Of a stretch of DNA of 40,097 nucleotides, positions 3,727-26,087 are shown one piece after another. Source of the DNA: a virus; the IMG/VR virus record IMGVR_UViG_3300023500_000011, positions 1 to 40,097 of that record. The stretch is one strand, 5' to 3'. How positions within the stretch are numbered: the first letter of the stretch is position 1; each line of letters begins with the position of its first letter. The translations under genes were made by a program, and so were the position numbers. The notes beneath the pieces were generated by a model that did not search any database, was not told where the DNA came from, and was given only the letters and a program-made list of their open reading frames with translations.

Positions 3727-6604
3727 TAATACTTTAATAATTCGGATAAACGGCTCGGCAAAAAGTTTCCTTGACGAAATAGATAAGGTTAAACAGAAAA
3801 CAGCGACTTTACAAAAAGCGTTAGCTAAGACTGCTAAAGTCTCCGCTACAGCTTTCGCAGGTTTTGCCGGGGTTATAGCTCTAGTGACTAAATCTTTTGC
3901 TGATTACGAAAAAGCTTTAGTGGGCGTAGGGAAGACTACAAATATAGAAGGCAAGCGTCTTCAAAAGTTTGGGCAAGAGTTTAAAAAGCTTTCCTCCGCT
4001 ATACCAATCTCAACAAACGAACTTCTAGGCATAGCACAAGCCGCAGGCCAATTAGGAATTGAAGGCGAAGAAAACCTTTTAAAGTTTACTGAGACGATTG
4101 CAAAACTTGGAGTTGCTACAGATTTGACGGGTGAACAAGCAGCGACATCTCTTGCAAGACTTCTAGGTTTAACAAAAGAAAGTGTCGGAAGTATCGACAA
4201 GCTGGGCTCTGTTCTAGTTGCGTTAGGAAACTCAAGTAAAGCTTCAGAATCAGAAATTCTAAAGATGGCTTTATCAGTTAGTAAAGCCACAACTGTTTTC
4301 GGAATCAGTTCTGGAGATGCAGCCGCCTTTGGTACGGTCTTAAAAGAACTTGGGCAAGAAGCACAACTAGGTGGCTCTGTAATTGGCAGGTCTTTTTTAA
4401 AGATTCAAAAAGCAATTGATGATGGAGGGCCTTCACTTGAAAGGCTGTCAGAACTAACAGGCATTGCGGGAGACCAATTAAAGCAAACGTTCCAAGAAGA
4501 CGCAGCTGGAGTTTTTAGGTCGTTCTTATCCGGGGTTGGTAACTTAGAAGGCGGTACTACTGCGCTCTTTAAAGAGCTTGAACGTTTTGGCTTAAAGGGC
4601 GATGAGATTAATAAGGTGCTGCCCGCACTTGCTCAAAATACTGAGCTACTTAATAAAGCTTTTAATACTACAGCTAAAGAACTTGCAAACCCTACAGCTC
4701 TTACTAAAGAAGCAGCCGCAGCTTTTGCAACCCTGTCTTCAACTGCTCAGCGGGTATCAAATAACTTTGACAACTTAAAAGCTTCTATAGGCGCAAAATT
4801 AGCCCCTACTATAACAGAACTTTTAGACGGTCTTAATACTTTTTTAATTTCTTTAACTAATCTTGACGATGAAATAGTTTCGAGCGTAGCATCGTTCTTA
4901 AAATGGGGCGCCATAATATCCGGCCTAGTGGCTACAGTAGCCGGTTTTCTAACCGGAGTTTTATCTCTGTCTGCAGCTATATCAGTTCTAGGCGCTTTCT
5001 TCCTTCCCGCAGCTGTTACAGCGTCGGCCTTTTGGATTGCGGTCACTGGGCCTATTGGATTAGCTGTTGCAGGTGTTGCTGCGCTAGCAGTTGGGTTTGT
5101 CGCGCTCAAGTCGGCTTTAAGTGATAGAGACCCTCCTAAAACTTTAACAGGCATTACTAACGAGCTTAAGAAAATAAACGAAGAAATTGACGGTCTTGAA
5201 GCCAGAAAAGGAAGCCTACGCGGTAGTGAGTTTGTTAACCTTAGAAGTTTAAAAGACCAGCGTGAAGAGCTTGAAAAGTTAAGAGAAGCCAAGATCAGAG
5301 CTTCTGAAGACTTTGGTACTGGAGAGCTGCTAGTAAGGCCTAAAGCCGACAATAGTAATTTTGACCCGTTACAAGGTATTGATAAAGCGATAACTGGCCC
5401 ACAAATTAACGCCGCTGAACAAGCGAACGTTGAAGAAGATAAAGCGATCGCAGCTAAAACTAAAGCTGAAGCTGAAGCCAGGGCTATTAAAGACGCGTTA
5501 GACGAAGAGCAACTAGCCAAGGACAAAGAAAAGGCAGCTGGGAAGGCTAAGCAAGAAGAGGAAGACGCTCAGAAAAGAATCGATACCCTTAAGACAACTA
5601 ATACTGAACTTAAAGCTATTAAAGAAGCAAGCGACGCAGAAGAAACAGCAGCAGACAAAGCGATCGCTGAAAGAAAACAAGAAATAGAAAACGGAAGAAT
5701 AGAAGCTAAGAAAATAAAGAACGCTGAAGAGCGCGATCTTACTCTACAAAATTTAGAACTACAACATGAAGAAGAACTAGCATCTATTGACGAGTTTGAA
5801 GCTACTAAAAGTGAAAGAGCCCTTGGACGCGCCGAAGAAAAAGCCGCTTTAGATGAAGCGCTAAGAGCTCTTACAAAAGAACAGCAAGCTCGGTTCAATG
5901 AAGAAGACCGTGCCTCTTTATCTTCTCAAATTGACACACAAAAAGAAGCTGAAAAGAAAGCATCAGAAACTAAAATCCAAAGACAGATAAAAGAACGAAA
6001 TCAATTCAAGCAAGACGAGATTAAATTTGGTACTCAGATTGCTACGCTTAAACAGTTTTTTGCTTCTCAAGAAGTACAAGGCGTCAAGAACGCTACTAAC
6101 CAACTTGTCCAATTAAGCAACTCAAGAAACTCAACTTTAAAGGGAATCGGAAAAGCAGCGGCCAGAGTTCAAGCGGCAATTAAAACCGCAGAAGGAGCTA
6201 TCTCAGCTTATGCTTCGTTAAGTGGAATACCTCTGATCGGTCCAGTATTAGGGGCCGCAGCGGCAGGCGCAATAATTGCCTTCGGAGTTGAGCAGCAACA
6301 AAAGATTTCTTCAGCCGCAACCGGTGGTTTTGTTCCACCTTCTGGTGGAGGCTCAAGGGACAGAACTAACATGCTGTTAGAACCCGGAGAATTAGTCGTG
6401 CCCCAAGCGTTAACCCCTAACTTTATTCAGTCAGTTGGAAATCCTGCTAACGGAGATTTCGCTAATGACGATTCAGGCGCGAGTAGCGGGGGCAGTTCAA
6501 GCACAATACAGCTTGAGGGCGATCTTATACAGAATGAAGAGTTTGTGTCAGCCTTGGCAACTGAACTTAGAAACCAACAAGAATTTGACAACGTGAGGAT
6601 ATAA
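3716..6604 (+). CDS. Tail tape measure protein
   Basis: 962 aa, the second longest protein in the genome. The N-terminal 360 residues follow the TP901-type tape-measure core (ADYEKALVGVGKTTNIEG; NELLGIAQAAGQLGI; LATSL-type helices). Hydrophobic segments lie at about 390-465. A long Ala/Glu/Lys coiled coil covers about 475-770, rich in KAEAEA-type repeats, and a hydrophobic Gly/Ala stretch lies at about 820-860. The motif GGFVPPSGGG...LLEPGELVVP near the C-terminus is widespread in tape measures. It sets tail length and is ejected with DNA. By the usual 1.5 angstrom per residue rule the tail would be near 140 nm. Confidence 0.92.
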   Translation: MASDNTLIIRINGSAKSFLDEIDKVKQKTATLQKALAKTAKVSATAFAGFAGVIALVTKSFADYEKALVGVGKTTNIEGKRLQKFGQEFKKLSSAIPISTNELLGIAQAAGQLGIEGEENLLKFTETIAKLGVATDLTGEQAATSLARLLGLTKESVGSIDKLGSVLVALGNSSKASESEILKMALSVSKATTVFGISSGDAAAFGTVLKELGQEAQLGGSVIGRSFLKIQKAIDDGGPSLERLSELTGIAGDQLKQTFQEDAAGVFRSFLSGVGNLEGGTTALFKELERFGLKGDEINKVLPALAQNTELLNKAFNTTAKELANPTALTKEAAAAFATLSSTAQRVSNNFDNLKASIGAKLAPTITELLDGLNTFLISLTNLDDEIVSSVASFLKWGAIISGLVATVAGFLTGVLSLSAAISVLGAFFLPAAVTASAFWIAVTGPIGLAVAGVAALAVGFVALKSALSDRDPPKTLTGITNELKKINEEIDGLEARKGSLRGSEFVNLRSLKDQREELEKLREAKIRASEDFGTGELLVRPKADNSNFDPLQGIDKAITGPQINAAEQANVEEDKAIAAKTKAEAEARAIKDALDEEQLAKDKEKAAGKAKQEEEDAQKRIDTLKTTNTELKAIKEASDAEETAADKAIAERKQEIENGRIEAKKIKNAEERDLTLQNLELQHEEELASIDEFEATKSERALGRAEEKAALDEALRALTKEQQARFNEEDRASLSSQIDTQKEAEKKASETKIQRQIKERNQFKQDEIKFGTQIATLKQFFASQEVQGVKNATNQLVQLSNSRNSTLKGIGKAAARVQAAIKTAEGAISAYASLSGIPLIGPVLGAAAAGAIIAFGVEQQQKISSAATGGFVPPSGGGSRDRTNMLLEPGELVVPQALTPNFIQSVGNPANGDFANDDSGASSGGSSSTIQLEGDLIQNEEFVSALATELRNQQEFDNVRI

Positions 6605-7020
6605 TGGCTAATTCAATACCTAAAATAGTTTATAATGCAGGAGCTGGCGACGTTACTATCCAATTTCAATATCCTCCTCAAGGTTTAGACTATGTAGGTA
6701 AGACTATAAAGTTTATCGGCCAAGTATCTGAGTCGTCTAACGGCAACTACCAAACCTCTGATAACTACACCGAAGATGAGCGGACTTTAAGATTTCGCCA
6801 AGTAAAAGAATCTATAAAAAACCAGCTAGAAACGTTCATGTTAACTTTTGCAGGCTCTAAAAGAAAAACTTTTAAGTACTTTGTAGACTCAGACGAAGTA
6901 AGTTTTATACAAGTACAAATGTCAAGGGGCCAAACAAGTTTCAGGCCAAAGAGAACAGGTTGGAATTCCGCGGGTGATTTTACTTACGAAATTAAGTTTA
7001 AAATGAGAAGGGTTCTATAG
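6604..7020 (+). CDS. Tail protein downstream of tape measure, possibly distal tail
   Basis: 138 aa, predicted mainly beta. Its start overlaps the tape-measure stop (TAATG). It occupies the position of distal tail (Dit-like) or minor tail proteins that join the tube to the tip hub. At 138 residues it is shorter than a typical Dit (about 200 or more). No domain is recognised with certainty. It ends in RRVL with a stop overlapping the next GTG start. Confidence 0.4.
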   Translation: MANSIPKIVYNAGAGDVTIQFQYPPQGLDYVGKTIKFIGQVSESSNGNYQTSDNYTEDERTLRFRQVKESIKNQLETFMLTFAGSKRKTFKYFVDSDEVSFIQVQMSRGQTSFRPKRTGWNSAGDFTYEIKFKMRRVL

Positions 7021-8831
7021 TGACTACTCTTACCAATTCATTAGACCAGAACTTTGAGTTCACTAATAACTTGGTGGTTCTGATAAATGGCGTATATTTT
7101 GCAAAATACCAACCAGACTCAGGCCTCACAATCGATTCTGACAAGCTTTTAGTCAATGGCGCTAGCATTAACCCTACCCAAATCGACTTAAGAAGAGCGA
7201 CAACTCAGATAAATTCAACTACTGTAAAGATATTAGATGGCACTGACGACGATGATTTTGTCTTCTCGGCTTTCATGGGCGCTGATGAAAATGCTTTGAT
7301 AGGCTCGTCTATTGAGGTGTTCTTTGGAAGGGTCGGAGAGAGCATACCTTTCTCCGAATATATCCAGATAAGCAAATACATAATAAATGGCATTTCAAAA
7401 AGTAATGGGTTTTACACTGTTAAAGCCAAGTCTCAAGAAGACAGAACTTTGACATCCGTTTTTGAAGAACAAGGAACGCTAGACGCTTCTATTAACTCCT
7501 CTGTTCTTAGTGTTGACGCTGATACGATTGACGACGATTTCCCTGCTTCAGGTATTATAAAAATAGACTCTGAGCATTTAAGTTACAGCTCAAAATCTTT
7601 TCTAGCGGGTATAACGACTTTCACAATTGCAGCCAGAGGGTTTTTGCAGTCAGTAGCTGATTCACATACAGCAGGGGCCCAAGTAAATTTTGTCGAAAAG
7701 ATAGAGGGTAATCCTATTGACTTGATTCTCCAATTGCTTATATCTTCAGGAGGCGGCGGAGTTTACGACGTCTTAAACGACGGAGCAGGCATTGATAACA
7801 CTCTCGTGGACATCGTAGCTTTTGAAGCTATACGAGATACTTTTTTTGCAACTGATGTATTTACTCTTTATGGCTCAGATATTTCTAAGCTGATATCTTT
7901 CATAGAAAAAGAATTACTAGTTCCTAATAACGTTAGGATAATAAAAAATTCTATGGATAATTTAATAAGTTTGGCCCTATTAGACCAGTCAGATTTAACC
8001 GCAGCTGTCCCTGAAATTGACGACGCGGTAACTCTCTTAGATTCAGCAAAGTGGTCTAATACAAAAAATGGCCTGCAAACAGTTGTAAAAGTTCAATGGA
8101 ACTGGATAGAAGGTTTGCGAAAGTATACAAGGTCAAAAACTTTCAAAGCTGACGCGGATATTCTAGCGGTCTTCGGAGAAGTAAAAGGGCCTAGCTTAAA
8201 ATTTAAAGGAGTTCAAGAAGCCAACAACGGCACGACAATAGCGGCTGACAGAGCTACAAGGTATTTGTCAAGGTTTGCAAGCCCTCAAGCAACAGTCAAG
8301 CTAAATGCTTTTATGACCACCTTTAGCCATAACGTAGGCGATAAAATAAGAGTGTCAGCGAAGCACCTTCCGCAAGAAGGGGGAAGCCTTGGTATGAGTT
8401 CTATTTTAGAGCTTGTCAATAGATCGGTAAATACTTCTACGGGAGTCGTAAAGCTTGCGTTTAAATTTACATCTTACACAAATATAAGAAGTGGGCTGTT
8501 GTCGCCTTCTCCATTTTTAGATTTAACTATAACCTCGCAGAAAACTTTTGAGGTTCCTGATGGCAGTTGTTACAAAGCCGGGTATGTTTTAAAGCTTTGG
8601 GACTACGCAAACGCGGCTTATTATTCTGACGCCGCGAATGTTGTTGAAGCTGTTTCAGGTAACTTTATAACCATGACAGACAATTGGAGTACTATTTTAA
8701 CTGCCAATGCTGTATTATTTTTTGCAGACTATGATGAAGCGAATGAAGAACAAAAAGCTATATATGGATTTACTGTCGGCGATACAAACTTTTTTGCTGA
8801 TGGTTCTAAAGGCTACCAAGTAATTTTATAA
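7020..8831 (+). CDS. Tail tip / baseplate hub protein
   Basis: 603 aa from a GTG at 7020 overlapping the preceding TAG, with AGAAGGG seven bases upstream. A segment at about 180-220 (IIKIDSEHLSYSS, then FTIAARGFLQSVADSHTAGA) matches a motif often seen in central tail proteins of siphophages: an Ile-rich strand, Glu, Tyr-Ser, then an Arg-Gly and a His-Thr-x-Gly-Ala. Around it are beta-rich hub-like regions. It lies between the distal tail candidate and the long fibre gene, as a hub should. It probably forms the tip that holds the fibre. Confidence 0.55.
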   Translation: MTTLTNSLDQNFEFTNNLVVLINGVYFAKYQPDSGLTIDSDKLLVNGASINPTQIDLRRATTQINSTTVKILDGTDDDDFVFSAFMGADENALIGSSIEVFFGRVGESIPFSEYIQISKYIINGISKSNGFYTVKAKSQEDRTLTSVFEEQGTLDASINSSVLSVDADTIDDDFPASGIIKIDSEHLSYSSKSFLAGITTFTIAARGFLQSVADSHTAGAQVNFVEKIEGNPIDLILQLLISSGGGGVYDVLNDGAGIDNTLVDIVAFEAIRDTFFATDVFTLYGSDISKLISFIEKELLVPNNVRIIKNSMDNLISLALLDQSDLTAAVPEIDDAVTLLDSAKWSNTKNGLQTVVKVQWNWIEGLRKYTRSKTFKADADILAVFGEVKGPSLKFKGVQEANNGTTIAADRATRYLSRFASPQATVKLNAFMTTFSHNVGDKIRVSAKHLPQEGGSLGMSSILELVNRSVNTSTGVVKLAFKFTSYTNIRSGLLSPSPFLDLTITSQKTFEVPDGSCYKAGYVLKLWDYANAAYYSDAANVVEAVSGNFITMTDNWSTILTANAVLFFADYDEANEEQKAIYGFTVGDTNFFADGSKGYQVIL

Positions 8832-16330: not shown

Positions 16331-16399
16331 TTAGTCAAGTATGAATAATAAAAAAATTACTGTAATTATAATGGTAAATATCTCGTCTTCAGTCATCAT
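16331..16399 (-). CDS. 22-aa membrane miniprotein candidate
   Basis: MMTEDEIFTIIITVIFLLFI followed by LD and a stop: an acidic N-terminus followed by one hydrophobic helix. Its ATG overlaps the polymerase stop (ATGA), and its TAA is part of the TAAGGAG ribosome binding site of the next gene. It exactly fills the gap between two genes. The weak AAAGG site lies eight bases upstream. Such a short frame could be chance, but context favours translation. Confidence 0.4.
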   Translation of the reverse strand: MMTEDEIFTIIITVIFLLFILD

Positions 16400-18339
16400 T
16401 TTTTGTACCTTTTTCCTTCGTAGCCTTCTGCTCCGATTGGGCAACCGATTCCCCATTCAGGAACAGCTTCCATGATCTTATTATACTCGCCAATACTTCC
16501 AAAATCAGAATCAACAAGGGCGATATTCTCATCATGCACACATGCGATAAGTGGGTAACCCGCTTTCTCGCTTCTAAGCATTGAATCAGTAAGGAAGTCT
16601 CGGGCTGTTGCTTGTACCGCATTTTCTGTTAACCTCCCGGGAATAACTGTTAGGCGTTCCCATTTTCTAGTGTAGGTGTTTTGGCCCATGTGGGTTATTG
16701 CTAATTTTTCAGCACCCCAAGGGGTTATCACGGTTCTAAGTTCTGGTTTGTAATATGCGATAAGCCTTCCGCTTGGTAATCTCATGTAAAGAAAATCATC
16801 CATAACTCTAAACTTTATATGACCACATGTAAAGGCTTTACCAGGTTGAGCTATAGCGCTCATTCCAGCGCTATATAATTCTTTCCAAAACCTTACAATC
16901 AAGTAGTATTTTCTACGATAACCATCAACAATTTCTTTTGACTCATCATCTGTTATATGAATACCCCATTGAATCTCACAAACTTTCTTAAAGGTTTTCC
17001 AGCCGCCGCCGAAAACACAAGCCAAGACTGAAATCTTCCCTAATTGCCTTTGGTCTTTATTTACGTCTTCATAATCAATATGGTAGATTTCTTGAGCAGC
17101 TCTTTTGTATTGGTCAACTCCGTCTATAAAGTCTTGAAGAGTAGTCTCGTCTCCGGATAACCAAGCGGCTACACGGTTTTCTATAGAACTAAAATCCGAA
17201 ACGACTAATTTCTTATTTTTCGGAGCCGTGACGCAAGTTCTAACGAGCTTTATCGCTTCATTGTATACATTCATCAGGGCCAAATCACCCGTTTTGAAGA
17301 GAGTTATGAGCTCTTCAGGATTTTCACTTGAGTCTCTTGGCAAGTTATGAATCTGAAAACCCGACCCGGCAAACCTGCCAGTGGTCGCTTTGTTAAAAAT
17401 TAAATTTCCTTTAACAGTTTTATCGGTGCATAAAGCGTTCTCAATGAAGTCAAACTTTTTAATAGGTGTTCTTGAAAGCTCTGATCTAATTTCTAAGAAC
17501 CGTCTAACCTTGTCAGATATATCGTCTCTTTTAATCGCTTCTTTAATATCCGCTTTCGTGCAAGAGGTTAAAATAAGCCCGTTAGCATCTAACCATCTTA
17601 CATTTTTGATAGGCGAGTTAGTCGTCTTCAAGTCTCCGTCTGTCAGCTCTTCAATTTCTTCATTTAACTTTTGTTCATAAGCTCTTCTAGCCGCCAAAAT
17701 TGAATCAACAAGTTCTTTGTCTATCGGCAAACCCCTCTCATTCATCTTTAAAGTAAGATGGAAGAGGTCTAACTCCTGGTCTTTAACTTCTCTTGGTAAG
17801 GTTTCAAAGATTGAAATTTCCGTCTTGACGTCTTGAATACAGTAGTCATAAAACTCTTGAAAAAGCTCAGGGTCTTCTTTAGCTGTTCGCCTAGTTCTCT
17901 TATCAGTCTTAGTAGGTTTCTTAGGTTTTGAAAGGAGAGTGATTAACTGCTTACCTCTTTTATCTTTTTGCTCGATTGTTCCTAAAGCCTCTGCGCAAGC
18001 ATCAAGGCTAGCAGGCAATGACAAAGCAAGAGCATCAGTCATTGTGCATTTAAGCTGTTCAGGTTTTAACTTTGGCCAACCATGAAGTCTAGCGCCTACA
18101 TAATTTACAATGACGTATTCAAAACTTACGTTCCAAGAGCGAACGATTCCACCTTTCTTTATGTGGTCTATAAACTGTTTAGGCGGAGCCATGCCAGGGT
18201 GCCAAAGTTTAACTTTATCTTTTGAAGGCCCATAAGCAAGGCAGATAATTTCTGTAGACTTATCTTGGGCGTATCTAAAAGCGCCATACTTAATTGGCAT
18301 CGCTGAATAGGTTTCAAAATCGCAGAACATCTCTTTCAT
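16396..18339 (-). CDS. Family A DNA polymerase with 3'-5' exonuclease
   Basis: 647 aa. An N-terminal DEDD exonuclease begins at once (CDFETY, Asp7/Glu9, and VRSWNVSFEY). Polymerase motif A is SDFSSIENRVAAWLSGD near 380, motif B is RQLGKISVLACVFGGG, and motif C is CVHDE near 600. No 5'-nuclease domain. This is the single-subunit replicative polymerase found in many siphophages beside DUF2815, DUF2800 and SNF2 genes. Start overlaps the preceding gene (ATGA), linking its expression to the nucleotide-metabolism genes upstream. Confidence 0.95.
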   Translation of the reverse strand: MKEMFCDFETYSAMPIKYGAFRYAQDKSTEIICLAYGPSKDKVKLWHPGMAPPKQFIDHIKKGGIVRSWNVSFEYVIVNYVGARLHGWPKLKPEQLKCTMTDALALSLPASLDACAEALGTIEQKDKRGKQLITLLSKPKKPTKTDKRTRRTAKEDPELFQEFYDYCIQDVKTEISIFETLPREVKDQELDLFHLTLKMNERGLPIDKELVDSILAARRAYEQKLNEEIEELTDGDLKTTNSPIKNVRWLDANGLILTSCTKADIKEAIKRDDISDKVRRFLEIRSELSRTPIKKFDFIENALCTDKTVKGNLIFNKATTGRFAGSGFQIHNLPRDSSENPEELITLFKTGDLALMNVYNEAIKLVRTCVTAPKNKKLVVSDFSSIENRVAAWLSGDETTLQDFIDGVDQYKRAAQEIYHIDYEDVNKDQRQLGKISVLACVFGGGWKTFKKVCEIQWGIHITDDESKEIVDGYRRKYYLIVRFWKELYSAGMSAIAQPGKAFTCGHIKFRVMDDFLYMRLPSGRLIAYYKPELRTVITPWGAEKLAITHMGQNTYTRKWERLTVIPGRLTENAVQATARDFLTDSMLRSEKAGYPLIACVHDENIALVDSDFGSIGEYNKIMEAVPEWGIGCPIGAEGYEGKRYKK

Positions 18340-19145
18340 TTTTGCACCATAAATTGGTACTTGATAGATGCTTCCGGGTAGTAATTATAGATTGAAGCAT
18401 CTTTAGTTGTAAAATCAAAAAGATCAGACCTGTCGTCTATTTCAAGGTGGACTTTGCTCACACTTGGGATAACATGATACTGCTCTTTAGCTTGGTCAAT
18501 ATGAGTATTGTAAATATGAACATCTCCGAAATTGATTTTTAACTTACCCGCTTTTAAAAAAGTTTGCTTCGCCATCAACGTTTGGAATAAAGCAAAAGAA
18601 GCTATATCAAAAGGAACACCTATGCAATAGTCTGCGCTTCTTTGATGCACCATCATATCAAGATACTTTCCTTCTCTAACATAAAACTGATGAGAAACGT
18701 AACAAGGAGGAAGACACATCTCTTTTAAATCTCCCGGGTTGTAGGTCATAAGAAGATGCCTACGCGACTCCGGGTTTTTTCTGATGTTAACAACTAACTC
18801 ATGTAATTGGTCCATTCCAAAACCATAGCGCCATTGGTACCCGTAGATTTTACCAAGGTCGTTGTCATGCGTTTTCTTACCTGACATAGCCCATGAAGGC
18901 TTTTTGCAATCTGCATTCCAAAAGTTAACCCCTGCCCCTTGAAACTGTAAAGCACTTGTATAGCCTTTTAAGAAACAAGCGAGCTCACCGAAAGCGGCTT
19001 TGTAGTTTATTTTTCTAGAACTTACCAAAGGAAAACCATCTCTTTCAAGATCAAAATCTAAAGACTCTCCAAATAAAGAAATCGTGTCTCCTTGCGGTAA
19101 GCCTTTAGTTAAAATTTTGTCCATCAGGTTTAAGTAGTTTATCAT
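18336..19145 (-). CDS. Thymidylate-synthase-fold pyrimidine methylase, predicted dCMP-specific
   Basis: 269 aa. Clear TS landmarks: Glu54 (E. coli Glu58), Trp76, YGYQWR at 101-106, catalytic Cys148 in LPPC, QRSAD at 168-172, HIY at 210-212. The residue matching E. coli Asn177 is Asp180 (GVPFDIAS, codon 18606-18608). In T4 dCMP hydroxymethylase this residue is also Asp, and in TS a change to Asp shifts preference from dUMP to dCMP. The Arg that normally contacts phosphate in the N-terminal DRTGTG loop is absent (LPQGDTIS). So it likely makes 5-hydroxymethyl-dCMP or 5-methyl-dCMP rather than dTMP. SD AAAGG nine bases upstream; stop overlaps the polymerase start. Confidence 0.75.
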   Translation of the reverse strand: MINYLNLMDKILTKGLPQGDTISLFGESLDFDLERDGFPLVSSRKINYKAAFGELACFLKGYTSALQFQGAGVNFWNADCKKPSWAMSGKKTHDNDLGKIYGYQWRYGFGMDQLHELVVNIRKNPESRRHLLMTYNPGDLKEMCLPPCYVSHQFYVREGKYLDMMVHQRSADYCIGVPFDIASFALFQTLMAKQTFLKAGKLKINFGDVHIYNTHIDQAKEQYHVIPSVSKVHLEIDDRSDLFDFTTKDASIYNYYPEASIKYQFMVQK

Positions 19146-19514
19146 CTAACAGCCTTTACGCATTTCAAGCATATCTAATTGGTTTGGGTCGTTAACCCCT
19201 TCTTGAAAACCTTTAAATCTATTGTCTAGCTTAGGCGAGTTCTTTGTATGATAAAGCATGAACATCAAGTTGCAAGCTGCATGGCTTAGGTGGTTAAGGC
19301 CAGACTCAGGGTCTAAGTCTTCACCATTATTCCACGATAGCATGTGCCTTTGCATTGCTGAGTAATACCTTGAAATAGGAATTCCTATTTTCCAATTATG
19401 CGCTTCGTATTTCTTAGCCCCAAAGTCTAAGACCTTAGCGACTTCTAGGATTAGCTCTTGGTCGACTAAATCGATGGGTGGTTTACCCCCATCAAATTTC
19501 ATTGCTTCTTTCAT
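19146..19514 (-). CDS. dNTP pyrophosphohydrolase (DUF5664 / MazZ-like)
   Basis: 122 aa from ATG 19514, which overlaps the upstream stop (ATGA) and has AAAGAAG before it. An upstream ATG at 19544 is less likely. The pattern KFDGGKPPIDLV, EVAKVLDFGAKKYEAHNW, AMQRHMLSW-x-NGEDLDPESGLNHLSHAACN is the DUF5664 dATP/dGTP diphosphohydrolase family, which includes MazZ of 2-aminoadenine phages. It would hydrolyse a dNTP to dNMP and PPi. No PurZ was found, so a Z-genome is not supported. Beside a probable dCMP-modifying enzyme it may shape the dNTP pool. Exact substrate unknown. Confidence 0.75.
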   Translation of the reverse strand: MKEAMKFDGGKPPIDLVDQELILEVAKVLDFGAKKYEAHNWKIGIPISRYYSAMQRHMLSWNNGEDLDPESGLNHLSHAACNLMFMLYHTKNSPKLDNRFKGFQEGVNDPNQLDMLEMRKGC

Positions 19515-19861
19515 AAATACTTCTTTAGGTTTGGAGGTTGCCATCCCTCAGGTTTCTGGAGGTCTAGCTTAAACCCCCCACGCTTATCTAACGGCCCTAC
19601 GATTTTTTGCATGTTAGCATTAACAACTTCTTCAATCCCTTGAGGTTCAAAGCCATGTCTAAGCAATGCGCCTAAAGCAAAAACCATAACATCAAGGAGA
19701 GCGTCATACTCGTCTTCTAAAGAAACAGCATATCCATATTCGTCTACTTCTTCTCGTAAAGCTTTTGTATAAAAAACTTTTTCATCAGGCGATAAATGCC
19801 TTGGGAGGCCGTGGTACAACAAGCCGAAATATTTATGCTGAGCTCTTACTGCTTTATACAT
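19511..19861 (-). CDS. MazG-like all-alpha NTP pyrophosphohydrolase
   Basis: 116 aa. The helix pair KALREEVDEYGYAVSLEDEYDALLDVMVFALG carries the spaced Glu/Glu ... Glu-x-x-Asp metal ligands of MazG or HisE-like enzymes. Ribosome binding site AAGGA upstream of ATG 19861. It is the first of the two hydrolases feeding into the TS-like gene, and lies just downstream of a strong terminator. T4 uses a dCTPase (gp56) with its dCMP hydroxymethylase. A similar partner role is possible but not demonstrated. Confidence 0.65.
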   Translation of the reverse strand: MYKAVRAQHKYFGLLYHGLPRHLSPDEKVFYTKALREEVDEYGYAVSLEDEYDALLDVMVFALGALLRHGFEPQGIEEVVNANMQKIVGPLDKRGGFKLDLQKPEGWQPPNLKKYL

Positions 19862-19931: not shown

Positions 19932-20450
19932 CTAATCCCAATCACCATCCACGAAATCTGCGAAATCGTCTTTAGCTGAGGTTTTAGATGTGAATTTTTC
20001 GCCATCGCGAATCTTGATAACGTTGTCTAAAGATATAGCAACGCCTTTTGTTTTCTCATACTCGTAAGCATAAGGTCTGATAGAAGCTTTAAAATACGCT
20101 CCTGAGTAAATGTCTTCAGGGTCAATGGCTTCAACTATGCCTTGCTCTGTTTTAATAACACAGCCAGGTTTTGTTTTGTTAGAAGCTGTTATGACTCGGC
20201 AACCGGCCCACTCATACTTTTCTTCTTCTTTGTCGCCATCTTTGAAAACGATTTTTAATTTTTTAGGTACTTCGTTCCACTTGTCCATAGCTGCTTGCTT
20301 AACAGCTTCGTCAAGCTTAGCGATGAACTCATCATCTTTAAGAATCGGGATAACCATAGAAAATTTAGGGTCTTGGTCTTTTGAAAAAGCTTTAGGCGTC
20401 ATTACCTGAACAAAGCTCCCTCTAAAAAGGGGTGTTACTAGTTTCGTCAT
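19932..20450 (-). CDS. ssDNA-binding protein, DUF2815 family
   Basis: 172 aa. The pattern of a beta-rich OB-like body, FSMVIPILKDD and AVKQAAMDKWNEVPK, with GAYFKASIRPYAYE and ISLDNVIKIRDGEKF, fits DUF2815, a phage ssDNA-binding protein found next to family A polymerases. The very acidic end (DDFADFVDGDWD) resembles the protein-interaction tail of SSB proteins. AAGGAG precedes the ATG. It has its own candidate promoter and a terminator, suggesting high, separate expression. Confidence 0.85.
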   Translation of the reverse strand: MTKLVTPLFRGSFVQVMTPKAFSKDQDPKFSMVIPILKDDEFIAKLDEAVKQAAMDKWNEVPKKLKIVFKDGDKEEEKYEWAGCRVITASNKTKPGCVIKTEQGIVEAIDPEDIYSGAYFKASIRPYAYEYEKTKGVAISLDNVIKIRDGEKFTSKTSAKDDFADFVDGDWD

Positions 20451-22052: not shown

Positions 22053-23159
22053 TTACGAGAAATCTTTAATTGCTTCTGAAGTTTTGTCCACTGAAGTTTC
22101 AGGTGCTTGCACCGGTACCACTTTCAAAGTTCCTTCTGATTGCTTAATCATTTCAGTTAAATCAGCCTTAAGTTTCTTCTTCTTAAGCACCTTTTCAGTC
22201 TGAGCAACTGTCAGCATCTTTATAGTAGTTTTTTCGAGCTCTCGTTGTACACAGCCTTGAGACATTAAAAAAGTCATAGCGTCTGCTTCATCAACCCAAA
22301 CTCTTTTGCCTTTGGAACGTACTAACTTAAAGTCAGGAACTTCTTCGCCAAGATTTAATTGTTTCAAGGTTTCTTCTTCCACGCCTTTTATAAATTGTTT
22401 TAACGCCGGAACAATTTTCATTCTTTCAGAAAGTTCAGTATTTTCAAATTGTGTCATAGCTGCCTCATTAGCAAGTTCATTTAATTTAGGACAAGTTACT
22501 TTATGCTCACACCAACGACAAGCATCTTCACTAGGCGCATAAATGCCGACGCCTTGATTGATGTTGCTAATCGTATCAGAAATTTGTTGATCTAACTTCG
22601 CCAAGGTTTCTAAAGGAATTTCAAGGTCTCTGATATTATCAACTGCGGGCTGAACTACGTGGATAGTGACTTGTTCAACTTTCATGCCTAAACGTTCTAT
22701 AAACTTCATAGCTCCTAAAGCATAAATCTGTAATTGAGTGTTATTAGTTATATAAACGTAAACACCTTGACCCGCTTTTAAATCTACAACATGTAAGCTG
22801 CCCGTAACTTTATTAAAATAAACAAAGTCAGACGTGCCGTAGCACTCCTCATGAATCTCTACCTTCATTTCGATAAACTCTAAAGCAATATCATTCATAA
22901 AATTAAATTCCCTTATATACTCTATATAAGGATTAGCCACTGTTTCAATATCGTCTTTCGTAACTGTATACCCATCATAAGTTCCTGTGGGCTCTTCGCC
23001 TAGAAGAGCTTCCTCACAATAGGAATGAATTGCCGTGCCTCTGGCAGCATAGCTTGATTGTTCTTGCTTAGGCTTCGCAGGTAATAAAACTGACTTACCA
23101 CATGTTAACCACCGTTTACTGTTGCTCGGGCTGAACCGAGCGTGTTTTCCGTTACTCAT
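22053..23159 (-). CDS. DUF2800 PD-(D/E)XK nuclease with Fe-S cysteines
   Basis: 368 aa. The motifs of a Cas4/RecB-like nuclease appear in order: ARGTAIHSYCEEAL, then GTSDFVYFN and VVDLKAGQGV (Asp and Asp-x-Lys active-site pair), NTQLQIYALGA (motif with Gln), and CRWCEHKVTCP with an upstream Cys that could bind a 4Fe-4S cluster. DUF2800 proteins lie beside DUF2815, SNF2 and family A polymerase genes in many phages. The C-terminal quarter (SKGKRVWVDEADAMTF) is a smaller domain. Probably acts in recombination or replication fork processing. Confidence 0.85.
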   Translation of the reverse strand: MSNGKHARFSPSNSKRWLTCGKSVLLPAKPKQEQSSYAARGTAIHSYCEEALLGEEPTGTYDGYTVTKDDIETVANPYIEYIREFNFMNDIALEFIEMKVEIHEECYGTSDFVYFNKVTGSLHVVDLKAGQGVYVYITNNTQLQIYALGAMKFIERLGMKVEQVTIHVVQPAVDNIRDLEIPLETLAKLDQQISDTISNINQGVGIYAPSEDACRWCEHKVTCPKLNELANEAAMTQFENTELSERMKIVPALKQFIKGVEEETLKQLNLGEEVPDFKLVRSKGKRVWVDEADAMTFLMSQGCVQRELEKTTIKMLTVAQTEKVLKKKKLKADLTEMIKQSEGTLKVVPVQAPETSVDKTSEAIKDFS

Positions 23160-24430
23160 ATTCCCATCACTCCTTTTATAAAGCCTTCTTTTTCCAGAGT
23201 CGTGTACAATACACGCTCGCAGATAGACTTGTGAATTGTTAATAGTTCTGCGGTTACATTTTCCGTCTGGCCAATCCTATGAAGCCTATCAACTAATTGT
23301 TGAATCGCTGAGTAACTCCAATCCGGTTCAACCATTATAATATGGCTCGCAGCTGTTAAGGTTAGCCCTACACCTGCTGCTTTTGTTTGGCCAATTAAAA
23401 TTCTGCATTCTTTGTCTGTTTGAAATCTTTCTTTAGCTGCTTCTTTAATTTCTGCTTTACATCTTCCATCAATTATAACTGGGTTAAAATCTTTAAGACC
23501 TTCAAAAAGCATATCGATAACATCAGTATGCCTAGCCGTTACAAAGATCTTGTGCTCAGTCTCAAGTCTCATCTTTATATGCTTTAAAGCCAGAGGAACT
23601 TTCTTGACACCTTGGTCATGTAAGAGCTCTGCTAAACCTTCAAAACCTATTGGTCTAGGGTCTTTTATAATATCTGAAAAGTCATAATTCTTTTCTTGCC
23701 TTCCAACAGGCAAGTCTAGAGCTACGACTGAAATGTTTCTCTCAGGCAAGTCAATCACGTCTCTCTTTAACATGTGGAGAGTATAAGGCGCGATAACTTC
23801 TTTCAACTCCGACTCGTTACAGCTTCCTCTATACTGCCAAACTTCACGGCTTCCTAAATAAATCTTTTTAGCATCGCAATACTTAACGCCAAAAGTATGA
23901 TAGGAATCTGTTAGAGCTCCAATGGAAAAGTAAGGAACGTATAAGTCTATATTTCTCTCCATTGCTGTTCCTGATAAAAGTATGGCTATAGGTGTGTTCT
24001 TAATTATCTTCCCGGCTATCTTTGACCTAATTGATTTAGGATTTTTCGTGAAATGGAATTCATCAATGATAACTCTGTCAAAACCTGAAAAATCGTAATT
24101 TGCTTTGGCTCTCTTCTTAACTTTCTTACCTAGTAAATCATAGTTAACTATAATTGTTCCGGGGCCTTTAGGTAGTTCTTCTGATTTCTTTTTTATAATT
24201 TTTACCCTTGGCGTGTTAGACCAAAGGTTGAGCTCTGTTGCCCAATTGATCTTAAGAGTCGCTGGGCATATTATTAAAACCCTTTCTCCTTTCTCAATTG
24301 TTCTAGCTGCGATAATTGTTTTGCCTAACCCCATACCAAGGGCCAGAACAACTTTACGGAGCGCCTCAGCTTCTTTTTTCTTAACCCATTTAAGAGCTAC
24401 AACTTGATGAGGTTTAAGCTTTAATTTCAC
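23156..24430 (-). CDS. SNF2-family helicase-like ATPase
   Basis: 424 aa from GTG 24430, chosen for AAAGGAG six bases upstream. The ATG at 24448 lacks such a site. Motif I LGMGLGKTIIAAR, motif II IIDEFHFTKNP (DEFH in place of DEAH), LLSGTAMERN, and C-terminal helicase motifs IGQTKAAGVGLTL and QLVDRLHRIGQ are clear. It uses ATP to move along double-stranded DNA or remodel protein-DNA complexes. The typical phage form of this length lacks extra domains. It overlaps the nuclease gene by four bases. Confidence 0.93.
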   Translation of the reverse strand: MKLKLKPHQVVALKWVKKKEAEALRKVVLALGMGLGKTIIAARTIEKGERVLIICPATLKINWATELNLWSNTPRVKIIKKKSEELPKGPGTIIVNYDLLGKKVKKRAKANYDFSGFDRVIIDEFHFTKNPKSIRSKIAGKIIKNTPIAILLSGTAMERNIDLYVPYFSIGALTDSYHTFGVKYCDAKKIYLGSREVWQYRGSCNESELKEVIAPYTLHMLKRDVIDLPERNISVVALDLPVGRQEKNYDFSDIIKDPRPIGFEGLAELLHDQGVKKVPLALKHIKMRLETEHKIFVTARHTDVIDMLFEGLKDFNPVIIDGRCKAEIKEAAKERFQTDKECRILIGQTKAAGVGLTLTAASHIIMVEPDWSYSAIQQLVDRLHRIGQTENVTAELLTIHKSICERVLYTTLEKEGFIKGVMGI

Positions 24431-24533
24431 TGACTTCTCCTTTTGCATTTATGGTAACTCTAACCCACCAAACAGGCATCCACTCAGCAACTTTGAGCTC
24501 CCCGGTATTAATTTCCATCCAAAGGTATTTCAT
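24413..24533 (-). pseudogene. Small gene with an apparent frame break (two short frames)
   Basis: From ATG 24533 (TAATG overlap with the upstream stop) the frame gives 24 aa and stops at TAG 24459. In another frame from about 24490 to TAA 24413, residues MPVWWVRVTINAKGEVSEIK are encoded and look like a continuation. Removing one G in the GGG around 24479-24482 would fuse both into about 39 aa. Alternatively the second frame is its own gene from a TTG at 24490 preceded by GGGGAG. The upstream part is MKYLWMEINTGELKVAEW. Either a broken gene or a recoding event. Confidence 0.4.
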
Positions 24534-24673: not shown

Positions 24674-24873
24674 TACTTTCTCCTCGCATATCGGCCCATG
24701 TATTTCCATTTGCCATTTTCTCTGTCCCATCTCTTGCCACATCTTCTGCAGTGCCTAGACTTAAATTTGCCTTTGGTGTTTCTTACGTAAACCCAAAAAG
24801 GTTCATGGCCTTTAAAGAAGTGAGTTAAGACACCTACTAAATTTCCTAAGAATTGTATGATTTTAAGTTTCAT
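24673..24873 (-). CDS. Small basic protein with Cys pair (66 aa)
   Basis: Hydrophobic N-terminus (IIQFLGNLVGVLTHFF) followed by a basic, aromatic body with HCRRCGKRWD and a Lys/Arg/Tyr-rich tail. The single Cys-x2-Cys could bind zinc with a His or in a dimer. It starts where the ATPase gene ends (shared base at 24873). No family recognised. Confidence 0.55.
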   Translation of the reverse strand: MKLKIIQFLGNLVGVLTHFFKGHEPFWVYVRNTKGKFKSRHCRRCGKRWDRENGKWKYMGRYARRK

Positions 24874-26087
24874 TAAATAGGCTCCTGAATTACATGACTT
24901 TCAACTAGTGTTGAAATAGTATCAAATAAATATGTTTGAAGTTCTCTAGTCAAATCGTTATACCCTGTTGCGAGATGAAAATACTCTTCAAGCATTGTAG
25001 AAAATAAGAACTTAGTTCCTAAAGTGAAACACCTCTTAGAAATTATAATAGTGTTAAGCTCTCTGTCAGCTAAAGCCATTGTCGATTCGCCTAATGACTT
25101 AACTATTTTAATTGGGTAGTCGTCAAAGTTTGAATACATATTAGAACAAATATTTCTACACTTGGTAAGCTGTAAGAGCTCAACAGCTGTAAGGTCAGCT
25201 TCATCATAATTCTTTAAAGAACTATTATTTTTATACTTTCTATACCAATCAGCAGCGCTTAAACTTAAAGTGTCTTTATTCAAATTATAATCTTCTTCTA
25301 AACAATTGAAAAAGTTTTCAGACATTGAAGACCTACTCATGCCTCCACTGAAAACTAACCCTCGCTCAAAAGAGTCGTTAGGAGGGTTTAAAATTTTAGA
25401 CGCTAATTTCTGAGAGGGCATTTGAATAACCATATTTTCAATATTAGTAGTATGCTCCCATGGGTATCTTAAAGTTCTGTCTTCTGTCAACGACATTGTA
25501 TTTTGGATATTGTAAGTAAAAAGTGATTCTTTTGCGAGCCCCGCGATTCTTACGCCTCTATAAAATGCGTGCATAGAAGGTTCTTCATAAATTTCTCCAT
25601 ACGTACTTTCAACAATTGGTTTCATTTTAGAAGTAGGTAGGACGATAGAATCTCTTTTAACATACTGCTCAAAAAAATCTTTTCCTTTTATTATGATTTT
25701 AGTTTTACCTGCTTCAGCTTTAGGTGTTTCCTCTAAGCTAAAAGTCTTCCCCTTCTCATCTATACAATTACAATAAATTTCTCTAAAAGCTTGCCACATC
25801 ATCCAATTCTTTCCGAGGTCAGTTGTAAAAGAAAGCTCAGCTCCGTTCATCATTATAAGCTCAAAGTCTTTTCCTCTTATTGTTCGCTTTTCAAGAGTAA
25901 ACTTTAACTCAGTAAGGCCTGAGAAAATACTTATGTCAGCTCCTGACCTTAAAATAATTGACAAAGCGTACTTAAGCCCCGTCCCGAAATACCCTATCGG
26001 GTTTTCAGTTTCCTTAACTGAGACTCCAAAAGTTGTGATTGACCTTATGTCAATCTCGCCGTCATTTTCAAAAATTACGTTTTTCAT
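24873..26087 (-). CDS. GHKL-type ATPase, motifs in permuted order, with EExxH C-terminus
   Basis: 404 aa. The N-terminus has a G1-box-like FENDGEIDIRSITTFGVSVKE (1-25), then a G2-box-like IGYFGTGLKYALS (31-43), as in Hsp90, MutL or MORC ATPases. The N-box that normally comes first is seen after them: FREIYCNCIDEKG with Glu103-x3-Asn107-x2-Asp110. So the Bergerat ATP fold appears circularly permuted. The C-terminal domain ends near LEEYFHLATGYND (366-378), like an HExxH metallopeptidase motif whose first His is Glu. Role unknown; it lies between replication genes. Confidence 0.6.
   Translation of the reverse strand: MKNVIFENDGEIDIRSITTFGVSVKETENPIGYFGTGLKYALSIILRSGADISIFSGLTELKFTLEKRTIRGKDFELIMMNGAELSFTTDLGKNWMMWQAFREIYCNCIDEKGKTFSLEETPKAEAGKTKIIIKGKDFFEQYVKRDSIVLPTSKMKPIVESTYGEIYEEPSMHAFYRGVRIAGLAKESLFTYNIQNTMSLTEDRTLRYPWEHTTNIENMVIQMPSQKLASKILNPPNDSFERGLVFSGGMSRSSMSENFFNCLEEDYNLNKDTLSLSAADWYRKYKNNSSLKNYDEADLTAVELLQLTKCRNICSNMYSNFDDYPIKIVKSLGESTMALADRELNTIIISKRCFTLGTKFLFSTMLEEYFHLATGYNDLTRELQTYLFDTISTLVESHVIQEPI

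Follow-up and report, generated by a model that had tools for sequence, protein, structure and literature searches.

A thymidylate synthase homologue with Asp at the pyrimidine-selecting position in an uncultivated tailed phage: a probable dCMP 5-methylase

The stretch of DNA analysed here (the window) is a 40,097-base IMG/VR virus record with a single ThyA gene. Genes for terminase, portal, protease, major head and tape-measure proteins are also present and identify its source as a tailed phage. The ThyA-family gene lies in a replication block on the minus strand, in which genes for a MazG-like protein, a PF18909 protein, the ThyA-family enzyme and a family A DNA polymerase follow one another in that order (Table 1). 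The block also holds an Enc34-type single-stranded DNA-binding protein (SSB), which has relatives in XP12-group phages. Elsewhere on the same strand, positions 22053-24448 encode a DUF2800/PD-(D/E)XK exonuclease and an SNF2-type helicase, and the replication block is partly related to that of the XP12-group phages. A 404-aa PHROG 8203 protein (24873-26087, minus strand) has an N-terminus, NPIGYFGTGLKYA, that by eye looks like a GHKL-type ATPase motif.

Table 1. Genes and codons of the locus, with positions in the window
Feature	Position	Strand	Basis
Family A DNA polymerase, next gene downstream of ThyA	16396..18339	-	PF00476 5e-21, PHROG 17 3e-100
ThyA-family enzyme, predicted dCMP C5-methylase	18336..19145	-	269 aa, ATG start
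Asp180 codon (GAT), E. coli TS Asn177 position	18606..18608	-	alignments
Tyr149 codon, E. coli His147 position	18699..18701	-	alignments
Cys148 codon, catalytic nucleophile	18702..18704	-	direct reading
Leu145 codon, three residues before Cys148; T4 hydroxymethylase Asp145	18711..18713	-	alignments, PMC6400193
dATP/dGTP diphosphohydrolase N-terminal domain protein	19146..19544	-	PF18909, 3e-32
MazG-like nucleotide pyrophosphohydrolase, 116 aa, candidate dCTP-to-dCMP enzyme	19511..19861	-	PF01503, PHROG 671
Enc34-type single-stranded DNA-binding protein, same replication block	19932..20450	-	PF10991 1e-37

The translated ThyA frame matched Pfam PF00303 (ThyA) at 1e-69, scoring 235 bits where the cut-off is 24.3, and PHROG 160 at 2e-82. 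In the AlphaFold2 model (pLDDT 97.0), residues 1-267 superimpose on residues 1-264 of E. coli thymidylate synthase (TS) with an rmsd of 1.1-1.2 and a Z of ~36. The residues that a preliminary description had listed as kept, Cys148, Arg169, Asp172, His210 and Tyr212, all read as claimed, and Ser170 is also there; R128, R129, R169 and S170 are thereby retained among the phosphate and catalytic residues. The PF00303 match and the catalytic Cys, Arg, Asp, His and Tyr place the protein in the TS superfamily.

The same description singled out Asp180 as occupying the substrate-choosing position, where TS has Asn and T4 dCMP hydroxymethylase has Asp. The codon on the minus strand is indeed GAT, within an intact frame, and both comparisons are borne out: in HMMER alignments with five solved TS, Asp180 lies opposite the Asn of PFNIAS (Asn177 in E. 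coli), and in MAFFT alignments with E. coli ThyA and T4 gp42 it falls in one column with Asn177 and the T4 Asp. The enzyme thus has, in place of the Asn of dUMP-type TS, the Asp that marks the dCMP-specific branch. The window contains a single copy of the motif RSxDxxxGxPF[D]IA, which appeared in 0/100 shuffles and is therefore not due to chance. As a DNA pattern, its Asp form was found in 42 stretches among 2.9 million IMG/VR contigs and its Asn form in at least 120 IMG/VR stretches; among 84,980 bacterial and archaeal species genomes, the Asp form was limited to 18 stretches.

That an Asp177 ThyA marks modified cytosine is a published principle. In a metagenome association study, positions 177 and 147 discriminated best between the ThyA of contigs with modified cytosine and other ThyA, Asp predominated at 177, and PF01503 genes co-occurred with ThyA of the former kind (PMC8670742). 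All three marks are found in the window, which has Asp at 177, a residue other than His at 147 and a PF01503 gene. Position 147 adjoins the catalytic Cys and is occupied here by Tyr149, a difference that the preliminary description did not mention. Of the Asn-type pattern loci in which this column is occupied, 116/116 had His147 (among the matches listed), while a residue other than His was seen in 5/40 Asp-type pattern loci; the residue is Pro in XP12-group phages and Thr in T4 gp42. Among the loci examined, the only Tyr besides that of the window belonged to the uncultured phage MedDCM-OCT-S28-C10.

In a ThyA tree built without columns 143, 147 and 177, the window enzyme and 13 others formed an Asp-only clade (ultrafast bootstrap 98, SH-aLRT 88). 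Its closest kin there, L014 and L002 (support 99/96), came from a similarity search without selection for Asp; both carry Asp, in motifs (PAD and PSD) slightly different from that of the window. Asp180 is thus not a lone change, being accompanied by a supported Asp-only clade and by Tyr at the E. coli His147 position. Across the tree the Asp changed seven times, gained or lost on several occasions, which indicates a recurrent specialisation; the Asp and Asn counts in the tree give no frequency estimate, since pattern matches supplied most of the Asp-type rows. L008, whose Asp call is probably a misalignment, was omitted, and the 177 column of the highly divergent L194 is less sure. No ThyA was found in the window's close relatives by capsid protein (L232-L241), of which the sole record with a polymerase ends inside that gene.

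These data bear on one alternative, an ordinary dUMP-using TS that tolerates Asp. The overall sequence and fold of the window enzyme are close to those of TS, Leu145 and the C-terminal tail are TS-like, and most ThyA-carrying phages use the enzyme for dTMP. However, PMC8670742 and PMC6400193 cite work in which Asn-to-Asp changes at 177 move canonical TS toward dCMP, the Asp form is very rare among cellular genomes, Tyr147 was absent from the Asn-type loci examined (among the matches listed), and the clade is uniformly Asp. A dUMP enzyme of this kind is very unlikely.

The gene neighbourhood was compared with that of Xanthomonas phage XP12, in which cytosine is replaced by 5-methylcytosine (PMC7653180) and which belongs to the Bradleyvirinae group carrying MazG-like relatives (PMC11946847). 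The features of this group were read from Xanthomonas phage YB23 and its relatives in place of XP12 (MT664984); YB23 is a 63,787-bp XP12 relative in which a published XP12 primer matches over 20/20 bases. The window's MazG-like protein scored 22.8 bits against PF01503, just above the 21.3 cut-off, and is 45% identical to a Roseobacter RDJL protein and about 42% identical to XP12-group proteins, all encoded beside Asp-type TS. Its relatives occur in 52/50,697 phage records, mostly of the XP12 group and of Roseobacter/Rhodobacter phages. Among 19 named phage loci fetched, 16 have such a relative beside ThyA, and in 16/16 that ThyA is Asp-type, the XP12 group included; no ThyA lies near the relative in DizzyRudy, Camille and Phrappuccino. 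In IMG/VR, a MazG-like gene adjoined the TS in 5/42 Asp-type versus 0/120 Asn-type loci (among the matches listed; Fisher p = 0.001). The window shares this XP12-type pairing of a MazG-like gene with an Asp-type ThyA, with one PF18909 gene between them. In L036, a PF18909 protein 52% identical to that of the window is encoded directly upstream of an Asp-type TS, and the row continues with MazG-like protein and dCMP deaminase.

Three further propositions about this neighbourhood were rejected. The MazG-like gene is not diagnostic of Asp-type TS, as eight IMG/VR relatives and the three named phages have no nearby ThyA (ThyA was found in 0/8 of these IMG/VR records, several of them marine T4-like). 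Nor is PF18909 specific to the Asp type, having relatives in the Asn-type TS contigs L131, L116 and L140. An apparent dGTPase-TS fusion in L036 consists of genes in different frames. A search for relatives of the window polymerase among viral contigs returned none.

In combination, residues 177 and 147, the Asp-only clade and a neighbourhood common to XP12-type 5-methylcytosine phages give good support to the earlier proposal that dCMP is favoured over dUMP, and, as far as sequence can tell, the window enzyme very probably prefers dCMP.

Whether the product is 5-hydroxymethyl- or 5-methyl-dCMP had been left open in the preliminary description. The water that attacks in the T4 hydroxymethylase reaction is activated by Asp145, which precedes the Cys by three residues, and the D145N variant is inactive, while TS has Leu at this position; the hydroxymethylase signature consists of Asp/Glu three before the catalytic Cys and Ser/Thr near the catalytic Tyr (PMC6400193). 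Neither element is found in the window enzyme, which has Leu145 at the first position and Lys99-Ile100-Tyr101 where T4 gp42 has Ser94 near Tyr96, leaving no counterpart of Ser94. In addition, the active site of TS is sealed by a C-terminal tail that T4 dCMP hydroxymethylase does not have, whereas the tail of the window enzyme is TS-like and reaches the E. coli TS end; this is weak evidence for methylation, because XP12-type enzymes have a shorter tail. A carbamoyltransferase, a known partner of 5hmC-making ThyA (PMC8670742), was found neither in the window nor in 44 other records with Asp-type ThyA (45 in all), and no glycosyltransferase was found among the window ORFs scanned. Taken together, Leu145, the absence of the T4 Ser94, the TS-like tail and the lack of a detected 5hmC-decorating gene favour 5-methyl-dCMP, which is the probable product on sequence grounds.

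A T4-like dCMP hydroxymethylase, in which water rather than hydride would end the reaction and yield 5-hydroxymethyl-dCMP, would share with the window the Asp at the specificity site and would need no DHFR, for which the window has no match; moreover, L195 combines a MazG-like gene with a T4-type signature, so that such a neighbourhood also serves hydroxymethylases. Against this stand the residues at the two water-handling positions, the tail and the missing decorating enzymes, and XP12-type enzymes likewise are without Asp/Glu at -3. Hydroxymethylation is accordingly regarded as unlikely. As for L195 itself (MW202510.1, ct3Et533), positions 5896-8193 hold a cluster of MazG-like, thymidylate-kinase, pyrimidine hydroxymethylase and dCMP deaminase genes, its ThyA-family enzyme carries the T4-type Asp/Thr/Asp signature, and it is likely a 5hmC phage with the same neighbourhood as the window. 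A CMP-preferring enzyme like MilA would belong to the same superfamily and likewise have Asp at the pyrimidine site, but Ala176 and Lys133 are the MilA marks (PMC5175136) and the window has Ser170 and Arg128, the deoxyribose-selecting set, which makes this reading barely credible.

The window enzyme departs from TS at one further site, an in-frame deletion between residues 20 and 21 that removes the Arg21 segment (RTGTG in E. coli TS). This segment contacts the substrate phosphate in TS, and at least 90% of aligned relatives have retained Arg21. The earlier expectation of an active enzyme overlooked this deletion, although activity remains plausible from the confidently predicted fold and the kept catalytic residues. 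The deletion, unlike the state of nearly all relatives examined, would also suit a decaying or inactive enzyme whose substrate binding was weakened by loss of the segment and in which Asp180 arose by neutral drift. Such decay is highly improbable, given the intact frame, the retention of R128, R129, R169, S170 and the catalytic residues, the pLDDT of 97, the clade-wide Asp and a location within a replication block next to the polymerase.

Partner genes were also sought. A thymidylate-kinase-family profile gave no match in the window; this is not decisive, because four XP12-like, Roseobacter and Rhodobacter records likewise gave no match to the profile, which also missed the annotated thymidylate kinase genes of W03 and W06. 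No dCMP deaminase (PF00383) was matched in the window, a record that may be incomplete, and the gene is present in 19/20 other Asp-type records compared, a real difference that sets the window apart. DHFR (PF00186) was matched neither in the window nor in the Asp-type IMG/VR records. The dCMP deaminase of Asp-type records possibly converts 5-methyl-dCMP to dTMP; Kuo 1982, listed among the references of PMC11946847, has a title that refers to a new biosynthesis of thymidylate during XP12 infection.

On balance, the window ThyA is best read as a probable phage dCMP 5-methylase on the TS fold that would feed 5-methylcytosine into virion DNA. In the proposed mechanism, Cys148 would attack C6 of the pyrimidine, and methylene-tetrahydrofolate would donate its one-carbon unit to C5 and then a hydride, giving 5-methyl-dCMP and dihydrofolate. 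Asp180, replacing Asn, could pair with cytosine N3/N4 and disfavour uracil, and Tyr149, replacing His147, could retune the water and proton network near C4. The MazG-like pyrophosphohydrolase would most likely convert dCTP to dCMP, both feeding the methylase and lowering unmodified dCTP; this role is suggested by the neighbourhood and by analogy with T4, where a dCTPase supplies the hydroxymethylase with its substrate (PMC6400193). Host kinases, or unrecognised phage ones, would make 5-methyl-dCTP for incorporation by the phage family A polymerase, and virion DNA with such modified cytosine would resist cytosine-sensitive restriction. Several findings count against a dCMP methylase: the Arg21 deletion, the absence of kinase, dCMP deaminase and DHFR matches in the window, the occurrence of MazG-like relatives in contigs without ThyA, and an identity of just 25-31% to XP12-type enzymes, which have Asn at -3. 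It is a more tentative, rather doubtful proposal that a natural Asp/Tyr dCMP methylase works here without the Arg21 clamp, dCMP deaminase, DHFR or a recognisable kinase, and that a minimal set of MazG-like protein, PF18909 protein, methylase and polymerase replaces cytosine in a 40-kb tailed phage.

If the dCMP methylase reading is correct, one more uncultivated phage lineage joins the short list expected to replace cytosine with 5-methylcytosine, building blocks that probably shield phage DNA from bacterial cutting enzymes, as known from XP12. The enzyme would then offer a natural test of how residues 177, 147, -3 and Arg21 set the choice between dUMP and dCMP and between methyl and hydroxymethyl transfer, and the MazG-like protein would be a candidate partner, open to assay, for removing dCTP.

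Compared with known systems, the window enzyme resembles the ThyA of the XP12 group, presumed to be the dCMP methylase of these 5-methylcytosine phages, in having Asp at 177, a residue other than His at 147 and no Asp/Glu at -3. The XP12-type enzymes differ in having Pro at 147, where the window has Tyr, and Asn rather than Leu at -3. The order in YB23 is MazG-like, Asp-type ThyA, dCMP deaminase and DHFR-like; the MazG-like gene of this group thus lies immediately upstream of ThyA, without the intervening PF18909 gene of the window, whose possibly incomplete record holds neither of the last two genes. Identities to XP12-group proteins are 32-41% for the polymerase and 29-34% for the SSB. In XP12-group loci such as L184 (PP756300.1), ThyA is annotated as thymidylate synthase yet has Asp177, and Mesyanzhinovviridae ThyA has been treated as a deoxyuridylate hydroxymethyltransferase (PMC11946847); because of Asp177 in the XP12-group ThyA, both names probably give the wrong substrate.

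The ThyA of MedDCM-OCT-S28-C10 shares the Leu(-3)/Tyr147/Asp177 triplet and an upstream MazG-like gene at about 31% identity, but it keeps Arg21 and stands beside an annotated dTMP kinase gene and a dCMP deaminase, two families that gave no match in the window. T4 gp42 shares the ThyA fold and the Asp at the pyrimidine-selecting site, whereas its water-handling Asp145 and Ser94 are both absent from the window. E. coli ThyA has the same catalytic residues, fold, Leu at -3 and tail, with Asn177, His147 and Arg21 in place of Asp, Tyr and the deletion. For L. casei TS, the engineered N229D enzyme is a dCMP methylase (Liu and Santi 1992, as cited in PMC8670742). The Asp of this single change lies at the same position, and the window enzyme would be its natural counterpart. 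Agarwalla et al. are said to have described, in 1997, a double mutant that also replaced the neighbouring His of L. casei TS N229D. By its sequence, the window enzyme is a diverged new member among these systems, with an unusual combination of Leu(-3), Tyr147, Asp177 and no Arg21.
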